Shown here in pieces: positions 16,675 through 19,910 of a stretch of DNA of 64,000 nucleotides. The first letter of the stretch is position 1, and each line of letters opens with the position of its first letter. A model generated the notes under the pieces. It had not been told where the DNA came from. It searched no databases and saw only the letters and a list, made by a program, of their open reading frames with translations. The translations under genes and the position numbers were made by a program. The DNA comes from Apibacter raozihei (GTDB lineage: Bacteria; Bacteroidota; Bacteroidia; Flavobacteriales; Weeksellaceae), in assembly GCF_004014855.1 (NCBI RefSeq), contig NZ_CP034930.1:3205716-3269715 (forward strand). The letters are read 5' to 3'.

Positions 16675-18477
16675 ATGGAAACATTAAACTCAATTAATAA
16701 AGCTAAAGGAGCTGCATTTATCACTCAATCAGTTCATTTTGAAGAAATATTTATACCGGAAGATTTTTCAGAAGAACAAAAAATGATGAGAGATACAGTA
16801 AAAGATTTCATTGATAAAGAAGTCATACCTATAAATGAACGCTTCGAAAAAAAGGACTACGCACTAACAGAAGAAATAATGCGTAAAATAGGAGAATTAG
16901 GACTTCTGAGTATTGCCGTTCCTGAACAATACGGAGGAATGGGAGCTGGCTTTGTTTCTACGATGCTCGTTTGTGATTATATCTCAGCAGCTAATGGTTC
17001 ATTAAGTACTGCCTTCGGAGCTCATACCGGAATAGGCACTATGCCTATAACTTTATATGGAACGGAGGAACAAAAAATGAAATATCTGCCTAAATTAGCT
17101 TCAGGAGAATGGTTTGGAGCTTACTGCCTGACAGAACCTGATGCCGGATCTGATGCTAATTCAGGGAAAACAAAAGCCATCCTGTCTGAAGATAAAAAAT
17201 ATTATAAAATTACGGGGCAAAAAATGTGGATATCCAATGCTGGATTTGCTCACTTATTTATTGTTTTTGCAAGAATTGAAAACGATAAAAATATAACCGC
17301 ATTTATTTTAGAAAGAGATGAATCAAACGGACTTTCTTTCGGTGAAGAAGAACATAAACTCGGAATACGATCTTCATCAACCCGGCAGGTTTTTTTTAAT
17401 GAAACAAAGATTCCTGTTGAAAATATATTAGGAGAAAGAAACGGAGGTTTTAAAATTGCAATGAATGCTCTTAACGTAGGTAGAATAAAATTAGCTGCTG
17501 CATGTATAGATTCGCAACGTAGAATAATTACGCATGCAATTCAATATGCTAACGAAAGAGTACAGTTTAAAACTCCTATTTCGGCTTTCGGGGCAATACG
17601 TAAAAAAATAGCTGAGCGAGCTACTTCCATTTATGTCTGTGAATCTGGTTCTTACAGAGCTGCTAAAAATATAGAAAATAAGATTGAAGAACTGATACAC
17701 TCAGGAGCTTCTCACAGTGAAGCAGAGCTTAAAGGAGTTGAAGAATTTGCTATTGAGTGTTCTATTCTAAAAGTCTATGCATCTGATGAAGCTCAGATAA
17801 CTGCAGATGAAGGTATTCAGATATATGGAGGAATGGGCTTTTCTGAAGATGCTCCCATGGAAGCCTCCTGGAGAGACTCCAGAATAGGAAGGATATATGA
17901 AGGTACTAATGAAATTAATGGTTTGGTTGCGATAGGAATGTTAATTAAAAGAGCATTGAAAGGTCAGATCGATTTAATTAACCCGGCACTTTCTATAAGT
18001 AAAGAATTAATGAGTATTCCTTCATTCGATATTCCTGATTATTCTCAAACCCTATCCGAAGAAAAAGAAATGCTTTCTAAACTGAAAAATGTTTTCCTCA
18101 TGATTTCTGGTTCTGCTATTCAAAAATATAAAGAAGAAATAGAAAAACAACAGCATTTATTGCTCAATGCTTCCCAAATACTTATACAAATTTATATGGC
18201 TGAAAGTGCTGTTTTAAGAGCAGAAAAAATTGTAACTAAGTTTCCAACAAATGCAAAAATACCATTAGCAATGGCTCAACTAAATCTTTTCAAAGCTATT
18301 GAAATTATAAAATCTAAAGCAACAGAATCCATCTACTCATTTTCGGAAGGTGATGAACAAAGAATGCTATTATTAGGCTTGAAAAGATTTACTAAGTATA
18401 GCAATCCTCCCAATGTAATAGCGCTAAGTGAAAAAATAGCATCGCATATTATTGAAAAAAACGAATATACTTTATAA
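16675..18477 (+). CDS. fadE: Acyl-CoA dehydrogenase
   Basis: A 600-residue FAD enzyme that makes the trans-2 double bond, the first step of beta-oxidation. The N-terminal helical domain contains FSEEQKMMRDTVKDFIDKEV; the middle contains the FAD/substrate motif YCLTEPDAGSDANSGKT and WISNAGFAHLFIVFARI; the C-terminal helical domain has the catalytic Glu region RIGRIYEGTNEINGL. It is about 200 residues longer than short-chain acyl-CoA dehydrogenases, with a helical C-terminal extension (~420-600), as in Bacillus FadE and very-long-chain types. The electron acceptor (ETF) is encoded elsewhere. The stop codon is only 3 bp before the first sigma-54 promoter of the sRNA array. Confidence 0.93.
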   Translation: METLNSINKAKGAAFITQSVHFEEIFIPEDFSEEQKMMRDTVKDFIDKEVIPINERFEKKDYALTEEIMRKIGELGLLSIAVPEQYGGMGAGFVSTMLVCDYISAANGSLSTAFGAHTGIGTMPITLYGTEEQKMKYLPKLASGEWFGAYCLTEPDAGSDANSGKTKAILSEDKKYYKITGQKMWISNAGFAHLFIVFARIENDKNITAFILERDESNGLSFGEEEHKLGIRSSSTRQVFFNETKIPVENILGERNGGFKIAMNALNVGRIKLAAACIDSQRRIITHAIQYANERVQFKTPISAFGAIRKKIAERATSIYVCESGSYRAAKNIENKIEELIHSGASHSEAELKGVEEFAIECSILKVYASDEAQITADEGIQIYGGMGFSEDAPMEASWRDSRIGRIYEGTNEINGLVAIGMLIKRALKGQIDLINPALSISKELMSIPSFDIPDYSQTLSEEKEMLSKLKNVFLMISGSAIQKYKEEIEKQQHLLLNASQILIQIYMAESAVLRAEKIVTKFPTNAKIPLAMAQLNLFKAIEIIKSKATESIYSFSEGDEQRMLLLGLKRFTKYSNPPNVIALSEKIASHIIEKNEYTL

Positions 18478-18480
18478 TTT

Positions 18481-18496
18481 TGGCACGCAATTTGCA
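18481..18496 (+). promoter_or_regulatory. Sigma-54 promoter, unit 1
   Basis: TGGCACGCAATTTGCA is a full match to the TGGCAC-N5-TTGC(A/T) consensus, with GG and GC 10 bp apart. It begins 3 bp after the fadE stop codon. Confidence 0.78.
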
Positions 18497-18506
18497 TGTT
18501 AAAAAG

Positions 18507-18568
18507 TATTCATAAGGCAGTGAATTTTCATAGTAGTTAGTTTTAACCCCGTTTTATACGGGGTTTTT
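18507..18568 (+). ncRNA. Small RNA unit 1 (about 62 nt)
   Basis: Predicted start about 12 nt after the -12 GC. The conserved block begins TTCATAAGGCAGTGAATTTT at 18509, continues with CATAGTAGTTAG, and leads into the terminator (stem AACCCCGT/ACGGGGTT, 5-nt loop, six Ts). No start codon with a frame of useful length lies inside. Except for the terminator the RNA looks weakly structured, leaving the 5' 35 nt available for pairing. A regulatory role by base-pairing is inferred; targets are unknown. Confidence 0.8.
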
Positions 18569-18600
18569 TATTTATATTTATTTTTTAAATCAAACAATTT

Positions 18601-18616
18601 TGGCACACATTTTGTT
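18601..18616 (+). promoter_or_regulatory. Sigma-54-like promoter, unit 2 (GT at -12)
   Basis: TGGCACACATTTTGTT retains the -24 element and spacing exactly, but the -12 GC is GT. Its sequence is identical to that of unit 6. Confidence 0.62.
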
Positions 18617-18626
18617 TTAAATATAG

Positions 18627-18690
18627 CGTTCATAAGGCAGTGAATTTTCATAGTAGTTAGTTTTAAACCCCGTTTTATACGGGGTTTTTT
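18627..18690 (+). ncRNA. Small RNA unit 2 (about 64 nt)
   Basis: Same invariant block as unit 1, starting at 18629. The terminator has one extra A/T pair (AAACCCCGT/ACGGGGTTT) and seven Ts in the tail. Confidence 0.78.
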
Positions 18691-18722
18691 TATTTTATTA
18701 ATTTACTGAAATATAATAACTC

Positions 18723-18738
18723 TGGCACGCATTTTGCT
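18723..18738 (+). promoter_or_regulatory. Sigma-54 promoter, unit 3
   Basis: TGGCACGCATTTTGCT is a full match to consensus with the GG-N10-GC spacing; with unit 1 it is the best of the six. Confidence 0.78.
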
Positions 18739-18748
18739 TTATATATAA

Positions 18749-18810
18749 TGTTCATAAGGCAGTGAATTTTCATAGTAGTTAGTTTTAACCCCGTTTTATA
18801 CGGGGTTTTT
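18749..18810 (+). ncRNA. Small RNA unit 3 (about 62 nt)
   Basis: Invariant block starts at 18751, again 28 nt after the promoter's first base; 8-bp terminator stem and T5 tail. The base before the block differs from unit 1, so variation ends where the transcript should begin. Confidence 0.8.
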
Positions 18811-18850
18811 ATTTTTAATTAATTACTATCACGCTAAATATGAATAACTT

Positions 18851-18866
18851 TGGCACAAATTTTGTT
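18851..18866 (+). promoter_or_regulatory. Sigma-54-like promoter, unit 4 (GT at -12)
   Basis: TGGCACAAATTTTGTT, identical to unit 5, has the -24 element intact and GT instead of GC at -12. Confidence 0.6.
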
Positions 18867-18876
18867 TAAAATATAT

Positions 18877-18940
18877 TGTTCATAAGGCAGTGAATTTTCA
18901 TAGTAGTTAGTTTTAACCCCGTTTTTATACGGGGTTTTTT
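18877..18940 (+). ncRNA. Small RNA unit 4 (about 64 nt)
   Basis: Invariant block starts at 18879. The terminator loop has one extra T compared with other units while both stem arms are unchanged, as expected if the hairpin is what matters. Confidence 0.78.
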
Positions 18941-18980
18941 ATTTTTAATTATTTACCATCACGCTAAATATAAATAATTC

Positions 18981-18996
18981 TGGCACAAATTTTGTT
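18981..18996 (+). promoter_or_regulatory. Sigma-54-like promoter, unit 5 (GT at -12)
   Basis: Identical to unit 4 through the promoter and leader; GT at -12. Confidence 0.6.
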
Positions 18997-19006
18997 TAAA
19001 ATATAT

Positions 19007-19068
19007 TGTTCATAAGGCAGTGAATTTTCATAGTAGTTAGTTTTAACCCCGTTTTATACGGGGTTTTT
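19007..19068 (+). ncRNA. Small RNA unit 5 (about 62 nt)
   Basis: Invariant block starts at 19009; terminator stem AACCCCGT/ACGGGGTT with T5 tail. The spacer after it repeats the spacer after unit 3. Confidence 0.78.
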
Positions 19069-19108
19069 ATTTTTAATTAATTACTATCACGCTAAATATG
19101 AATAACTT

Positions 19109-19124
19109 TGGCACACATTTTGTT
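19109..19124 (+). promoter_or_regulatory. Sigma-54-like promoter, unit 6 (GT at -12)
   Basis: TGGCACACATTTTGTT, same as unit 2; GT at -12 with exact spacing. Confidence 0.62.
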
Positions 19125-19134
19125 TTAAATATAG

Positions 19135-19198
19135 CGTTCATAAGGCAGTGAATTTTCATAGTAGTTAGTTTTAAACCCCGTTTTATACGGGGTTTTTT
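19135..19198 (+). ncRNA. Small RNA unit 6 (about 64 nt)
   Basis: Invariant block starts at 19137. The terminator has the 9-bp stem of unit 2 and a T6 tail ending at 19198, 14 bp before the convergent pncA stop codon. Confidence 0.78.
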
Positions 19199-19211
19199 GT
19201 CTTTTAACTAT

Positions 19212-19811
19212 TTAATTTGAATTCACAATTTCCCCACCTAAACTTATAAATTCTCTTTTTATCAATTCATAGTTCTCATAACTTATCGGCTTTGTAGCAT
19301 TATCAATAATAAAGGTTTTGAAACCAAGTTTTATAGAGTCCTTAGCTGTAAAATAAACACAAAAATCTGCGGCTAATCCACAAATGTAAACTTCATCAAC
19401 CTTTTTACCTTGAAGATAATTTGATAAACCTGTAGATTTTTTATTTCCATTATCAAAAAATCCACTATAGCTATCGATACCTTTATCCATTCCTTTTCTG
19501 AAAATGGCTTCAATTTTATTTTGATTTAATTCTTTAGAAAACTCTGCCCCCATACTTCCCTGTACGCAATGTGCAGGCCAGAGTGTTTGAGGTAATCCGT
19601 CCAGCTCAATCTGTTCAAAGTTTTTTTTGCCTTCATGCATTGTACTAAAACTTAAATGATTTGCCGGATGCCAATCCTGAGTCGCTACAACCAGTTCATA
19701 GTTTTGCTGAATTTTATTGATTATCGGTATTATATGGTTTCCATCCGTAACAGCTAAATTTCCTCCTGGTATAAAATCGTTTTGAACATCTACAATTATT
19801 AATGCTTTCAT
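19212..19811 (-). CDS. pncA: Nicotinamidase
   Basis: Deamidates nicotinamide to nicotinate for NAD salvage. The 199 residues carry the catalytic triad of the isochorismatase-like fold: Asp8 (VDVQNDFIPGG), Lys106 (FRKGMDKGIDSYSGFF) and the nucleophile Cys151 (GLAADFCV). Metal ligands are visible as TQDWHPANH (Asp47, His49) and WPAHCVQG (His81). I used the ATG at 19811 rather than an in-frame TTG at 19826. The product nicotinate is the substrate of PncB, encoded about 0.5 kb away, so the region is a salvage locus. It converges on the sRNA array. Confidence 0.93.
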   Translation of the reverse strand: MKALIIVDVQNDFIPGGNLAVTDGNHIIPIINKIQQNYELVVATQDWHPANHLSFSTMHEGKKNFEQIELDGLPQTLWPAHCVQGSMGAEFSKELNQNKIEAIFRKGMDKGIDSYSGFFDNGNKKSTGLSNYLQGKKVDEVYICGLAADFCVYFTAKDSIKLGFKTFIIDNATKPISYENYELIKREFISLGGEIVNSN

Positions 19812-19910
19812 ATCTATTTTTTTCAAAAATATGTTAAATATAAAATTTAATTTTTACTTGACTAAATTTCTTAGGCATAACAATTGTTATTATATAATAA
19901 TCAATAAAAA

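Follow-up and report, generated by a model that had tools for sequence, protein, structure and literature searches.

A predicted small RNA family of Weeksellaceae with sigma-54 promoters and a core antisense to translation start sites

To our knowledge, very few small RNAs (sRNAs) have been characterised in Flavobacteriia. Bacteroidota ribosomes hardly use Shine-Dalgarno pairing. The redundant, dispersed Qrr sRNAs of Vibrio are each transcribed from a sigma-54 promoter of their own and repress translation by pairing; the LhrC sRNAs of Listeria are encoded by tandem multicopy genes with individual promoters and terminators, are under LisR/housekeeping-type control and carry CU-rich loops. FopS of Bacteroides (RF04319) has seeds that pair beside the start codons of SusC homologs, preventing their translation, and the protein RbpB counters it (PMC11697453). 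The sigma-54 promoters of Flavobacterium psychrophilum serve chaperones, Lon, envelope genes and the putative regulatory RNA Rfp36; the housekeeping sigma factor there has TAnnTTTG as its -7 box (PMC9723704). A literature search on sigma-54 sRNAs in Bacteroidota gave no paper covering the whole combination, and a survey of the sigma-54 regulon (PMC12316311) makes no mention of sRNAs.

The window, by which we mean the whole 64-kb stretch of DNA analysed here, sits in a 3.29-Mb single-contig Apibacter genome (Weeksellaceae). At 18481-19198 of its forward strand we read six units directly, each with a -24/-12 promoter, a block and a terminator. The array and its neighbours are laid out as follows.

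16675..18477, forward strand: acyl-CoA dehydrogenase gene (fadE-type), upstream neighbour; from Pfam and synteny
18481..18495, forward strand: unit 1 sigma-54 promoter TGGCACGCAATTTGC; from sequence and shuffle expectation
18507..18570, forward strand: unit 1 sRNA, predicted ends; +1 near 18507, block 18509-18546, terminator stem 18545-18566 plus T-run
18601..18615, forward strand: unit 2 sigma-54 promoter TGGCACACATTTTGT
18627..18692, forward strand: unit 2 sRNA, predicted ends
18723..18737, forward strand: unit 3 sigma-54 promoter TGGCACGCATTTTGC
18749..18811, forward strand: unit 3 sRNA, predicted ends
18851..18865, forward strand: unit 4 sigma-54 promoter TGGCACAAATTTTGT
18877..18941, forward strand: unit 4 sRNA, predicted ends
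18981..18995, forward strand: unit 5 sigma-54 promoter TGGCACAAATTTTGT
19007..19069, forward strand: unit 5 sRNA, predicted ends
19109..19123, forward strand: unit 6 sigma-54 promoter TGGCACACATTTTGT
19135..19199, forward strand: unit 6 sRNA, predicted ends
19212..19826, reverse strand: nicotinamidase-like (pncA) ORF, convergent, downstream; named from sequence

An initial annotation had described six repeats with -24/-12 promoters, a 28-nt gap, an invariant 38-nt block and perfect terminators, and direct reading confirmed every detail. The promoters, which start at 18481, 18601, 18723, 18851, 18981 and 19109, all follow TGGCAC-N5-TTG(C/T) with a gap of 10 nt from GG to GC or GT, a correct spacing in all six copies and one conserved across genera. 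In every unit the block TTCATAAGGCAGTGAATTTTCATAGTAGTTAGTTTTAA (38 nt, without a single difference among the six) lies 28 nt from the promoter start, and the terminator is a perfect CCCCG/CGGGG stem of 8-9 bp, including flanking A-T pairs, followed by a T-run. The strict promoter TGGCACNNNNNTTGY has six matches in the 64 kb, all within the array, where shuffles lead one to expect 0.10; the 36-nt core of the block is likewise found only in the array within the window (expected 0.00). From the spacing between the -24 box and the block, the predicted +1 falls 1-3 bases 5' of the block. In the predicted fold of the RNA, a 5' hairpin of 6 bp precedes a core that stays open and then the terminator (z = -3.7 for unit 1 and -4.2 for unit 2). 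The predicted sRNA thus has its own promoter, an unpaired conserved seed and an intrinsic terminator, and is without a long ORF.

The first promoter begins 4 nt past the stop codon of the acyl-CoA dehydrogenase gene. Because no terminator lies between, the unit 1 terminator probably also ends the acyl-CoA dehydrogenase operon. By synteny, a fadE-type gene also adjoins the single-copy sRNA locus in two other Apibacter genomes (G005 and G006), and the pncA-like ORF stands beside the array in three more (G002, G004 and G008). A second locus in the window's own genome was considered and rejected, as the two extra matches there are one terminator-only and one AT-rich.

All nine Apibacter genomes carry the sRNA family, in 1-12 tandem copies: six in the window's genome, twelve in G004 and one each in G005, G006 and G007. 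Intact blocks number 41 in eight of these genomes, the ninth having a 1-nt insertion. Across the 41 copies the block changes at isolated positions only, while leaders, spacers and terminator stems differ widely. The strict promoter is retained in 37 of the 41, and a perfect stem of at least 5 bp with a T-run in 39, one of the two exceptions being cut by a contig end. The stems themselves change complementarily on both strands (CCCCGT/ACGGGG, GTCTCAC/GTGAGAC and CCCTACTTT/AAAGTAGGG). Among five decayed copies the promoter is left in one and the stem in two; promoter, RNA and terminator occur together in intact copies and are lost together in most decayed ones. Recent duplication within a genome cannot explain this pattern, because the block is kept across species while its flanks diverge, and the pattern is what selection on a transcribed RNA would predict. 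Such selection had been proposed for this locus, and it is conservation in other species, not the identity of the six copies itself, that bears the proposal out. We also observed a core variant, TTCGTAG, in the first intact array copy of three Apibacter species (G002, G004 and G008; copies at L016:8873 and 8662, L018:7865 and L019:4086), which may point to a paralog retained for another group of targets.

Beyond the genus, a covariance model built from the Apibacter copies (R1) matches 141 of 296 Weeksellaceae genomes, and the matches show the RNA GATTCTCATGTTTAATTTGAGTTTTCATGGTTATTAGTTTTTA and a terminator behind TTGGCAC-N5-TTG. A second model (R2), run on a sample of 396 genomes of the order, has matches in 75, which are without exception Weeksellaceae; no genome of another family in the sample has one. 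The sRNA also occurs in Bergeyella. In most genera outside Apibacter it is single-copy at ndk/rsgA: at 23 loci the sigma-54 copy adjoins a divergent ndk and, in many of them, a convergent rsgA (genes named from their sequences). In Chryseobacterium the model search found 1-6 copies per genome, at dispersed positions. The tandem form stressed in the initial annotation is therefore a trait of Apibacter, the RNA being single-copy or dispersed elsewhere. Most genera have C-G as the first pair of the hairpin, where Apibacter has U-A, both sides having changed.

Sigma-54 dependence, too, was claimed at the outset; the promoters support it for all six window copies, and some Chryseobacterium copies are without a sigma-54 promoter. 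Certain copies in that genus have a degenerate -12 (TTTCA), and others lie behind a TAnnTTTG housekeeping promoter, with the RNA start at the same distance as in sigma-54 copies. The unchanged start under two promoter types provides independent confirmation of the 5' end. With the TAnnTTTG paralogs (L167, L169, L174, L175, L177, L178 and L182), a single genome has the same RNA under both sigma factors.

At Rfam's curated (gathering) thresholds neither the window nor the sRNA in related loci has a match. A CRISPR, tRNA-like or known Rfam element was ruled out, there being no gathering-level match, and weak matches to RyhB, rimP, STnc260 and others seem to be noise arising from the terminator. 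A tmRNA with a partial antisense match near the Chryseobacterium copies was also sought, and none was found. The proposal of tandem sigma-54-dependent genes for a new sRNA is thus supported by the presence of rpoN, the lack of an Rfam match, occurrence in nine of nine congeners and spread across Weeksellaceae. Judged by its sequence, this is a previously unlisted sRNA family of Weeksellaceae with changeable copy number and sigma factor.

The rpoN gene, on which the proposal depended, is present in the window's genome. As rpoN is universal in Weeksellaceae, its co-occurrence with the sRNA is uninformative. The genome also encodes two activators with full sigma-54 interaction domains. The first has a Fis-type HTH, and its gene lies between miaB and lptE; the second (L106:1264-2499, reverse strand) has a receiver and an AAA domain, with no obvious HTH or DNA-binding domain in the ORF read. 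At several loci (L059, L063, L068, L070, L072 and L185) we noted a GGAAAATTCT-like element ~30-60 nt upstream of the -24 box. It sits between the ndk promoter and the sRNA promoter and is possibly a candidate activator-binding site.

The core of the RNA, UUUUCAURGUWRUUAG, is single-stranded and antisense to CTAATAACC-ATG-AAAA, and in Apibacter the complement of the core reads CTAACTACT-ATG-AAAA. We searched for exact antisense sites with a design that left out the sRNA itself and with the reversed pattern as control. The search returned 58 sites in 51 of the 296 Weeksellaceae genomes, versus none for the control. When 53 distinct sites were inspected, in 27 the ATG opened an ORF of 55 aa or more, six were variant sRNA copies and 20 were others. 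Roughly 2 ORF-start sites would be expected by chance, a figure derived from the local composition of 532 sampled starts and extrapolated to 296 genomes on the assumption of ~3,500 genes per genome. Predicted sRNA-target duplexes range from -19 to -35 kcal/mol.

Candidate targets include the start of csgF, after csgE; short precursor peptides of RiPP-like type; a membrane protein of 120 aa and a small, basic secreted protein, each in four species; and a lipoprotein, where a homologous pair has the site in two genera. In orthologous candidates the site is kept and the flanks have diverged. Two leaders carry triple sites 34-36 nt apart. In four g23 genomes (L270-L272 and L290) the leader belongs to an MFS transporter gene that follows a LUD-domain gene, and in two g9 genomes of another genus (L277 and L291) to a lipoprotein gene. 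A general search for double antisense sites stayed at background level except for these two real triple-site leaders. No SusC homolog was found behind the start-codon sites inspected, and the candidate targets differ among genera, none being common to the whole family.

RiPP/bacteriocin-like precursors with a full antisense site at the start codon were seen at L219, L225, L246, L307 and L313; one such site extends to ~22 contiguous pairs. Five Chryseobacterium loci (L228, L235, L242, L245 and L241, at ~position 1510 in each; four orthologous) instead hold an intergenic exact antisense copy of the core with a terminator directly after it. These terminator-linked elements are candidate sponge RNAs.

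Sites were sparser in Apibacter. Outside the array, the window's own genome has no antisense site with 0 or 1 mismatch; its best site (G000:1273133) reaches 20 bp with G-U pairs, which is not beyond chance. G-U-containing sites occur in G000 and G001, and Apibacter site counts are no higher than control. One strong site, with 19 contiguous pairs, lies at the start of a 220-aa membrane protein in G003. A single conserved Apibacter target was sought and dropped, since searches that allowed at most 3 and at most 2 mismatches gave only arrays and scattered sites. With up to two mismatches, most genomes likewise show no excess of antisense sites over control. Start-site complementarity exceeds chance for Weeksellaceae, not for Apibacter alone.

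These sparse results bear on whether the match is a generic Weeksellaceae start-site consensus, with one or a few real targets and most of the 27 ORF-start sites coincidental. A consensus of this kind would account for targets that vary between genomes, for two-mismatch counts near control in most genera and for own-genome sites without support beyond chance. We nevertheless regard it as unlikely: Weeksellaceae start regions are A-rich, with a consensus of ATAAAAAAA or AAAATAAAA, whereas CTAATAACC has P = 1.7e-5 before ATGAAAA and stood before none of 532 sampled starts. Exact sites are also ~tenfold above expectation, and triple tandem sites are hard to produce by chance.

The RNA might also be real and its core mainly a titrating decoy for a protein (RRM/RbpB-type or another RNA chaperone), with antisense pairing secondary. 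At 36 nt in Apibacter, the core surpasses most seeds in both length and invariance, high copy number fits titration, and Bacteroidota sRNAs bind RbpB, which counters FopS (PMC11697453). A decoy would, however, share its motif with mRNAs in the sense orientation, whereas the enriched sites are antisense and lie on start codons; the Apibacter core variants (G to A, A to G), moreover, keep pairing. We judge a decoy to be quite improbable.

It is highly implausible that the repeats serve only as terminators of the acyl-CoA dehydrogenase operon, or as coding sequence for a peptide of six residues (GTG AAT TTT CAT AGT AGT TAG), without a regulatory RNA: fadE and unit 1 are not separated by any other terminator and one block variant changes GTG to ATG, but every unit has its own promoter, synonymous changes are absent, and other genera have the RNA elsewhere (ndk/rsgA), without the mini-ORF and with the core kept as RNA.

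We therefore return to repression at start codons by a sigma-54-induced sRNA that is FopS-like in action, which we consider the probable reading. Because its conserved single-stranded core mirrors the translation start site, the sRNA most likely represses genes for envelope and secreted proteins, whose start codons it would mask. The array would comprise six redundant genes for one ~62-nt regulatory RNA. An enhancer-binding activator would switch on RpoN (sigma-54) polymerase, and each copy would then be made from its own -24/-12 promoter. The RNA would begin with a short hairpin (AUUCAU/GUGAAU in Apibacter, CUCA/UGAG in other genera), followed by the unstructured core UUUUCAUAGUAGUUAGUUUU and the intrinsic terminator. 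Pairing of the core across the start codon (CUAACUACU-AUG-AAAA in Apibacter, CUAAUAACC-AUG-AAAA in the rest of Weeksellaceae) would keep ribosomes from entering, chiefly on genes for secreted proteins, lipoproteins and small peptides. Redundant copies could give dose control and a burst, as the initial annotation suggested. The trigger, perhaps envelope or protein-folding stress, is the weakest step of the proposal; it draws on the F. psychrophilum sigma-54 regulon, which motivates it and does not prove it.

Such a family would offer a concrete, widely conserved case, with named sites, for how an sRNA blocks initiation where there is little Shine-Dalgarno pairing. It also allows a single RNA to be compared as it naturally occurs under two sigma factors and in 1 to 12 copies, and a link to FopS across two classes is possible.

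Among known systems, Qrr has redundancy and sigma-54 control in common with the Weeksellaceae sRNA, but belongs to another phylum, differs in sequence and is dispersed; the Weeksellaceae sRNA has no gathering-level match to Qrr or to any other Rfam sRNA family. LhrC resembles the Apibacter array in its tandem copies with their own promoters and terminators, with no sequence relation by Rfam. Rfp36, compared by description, is a sigma-54-driven independent small transcript in a related family (PMC9723704); kinship with it is unsupported, because R2 has no matches in the sampled genomes from other families of the order.

The closest parallel is FopS. The initial annotation knew of no Bacteroidota sRNA of this form, a view that has to yield to FopS as a close functional parallel with a similar seed. 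Both RNAs are multicopy in Bacteroidota, are ~60-70 nt long and appear to place a single-stranded seed before an intrinsic terminator. When the FopS seed UUUUCAUGGU-AUUAG is compared with the core UUUUCAUGGUUAUUAG, an equal or better score is reached by 7 of 2000 shuffles; with the Apibacter form, by 2 of 2000. The single-stranded R1/R1' seed of FopS, UUUUUCAUGGUAUUAGAUUU, is similar to the core with a 1-nt indel (p ~0.001-0.004 from shuffles), and the core is unpaired on folding. FopS is also the most informative sub-threshold Rfam match: the RF04319 model scores at best 23.6 bits (Apibacter) and 16.2 bits (G009), a range of 16-24 against a gathering threshold of 56 bits. In contrast to FopS, the Weeksellaceae sRNA has an extra 5' hairpin, sigma-54 promoters, a tandem array in Apibacter and a different terminator. 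FopS uses sigma-ABfr, whereas all six window copies have -24/-12 promoters and only some Chryseobacterium copies have TAnnTTTG. Below the Rfam threshold and with a different promoter, the Weeksellaceae sRNA does not belong to FopS; to the extent that sequence is a guide, its mode of action is FopS-like. We tentatively raise the possibility, which we hold to be less than even, that FopS in Bacteroidales and the present family in Flavobacteriales share descent or have converged on one phylum-wide device, a core antisense to a start-codon address, CTAAT(A)ACC-ATG-AAAA. Genes would gain and lose this address, sometimes in triplicate, sponge RNAs would buffer it, and promoter swapping (sigma-54/housekeeping) together with copy number (1 to 12) would set the dose.
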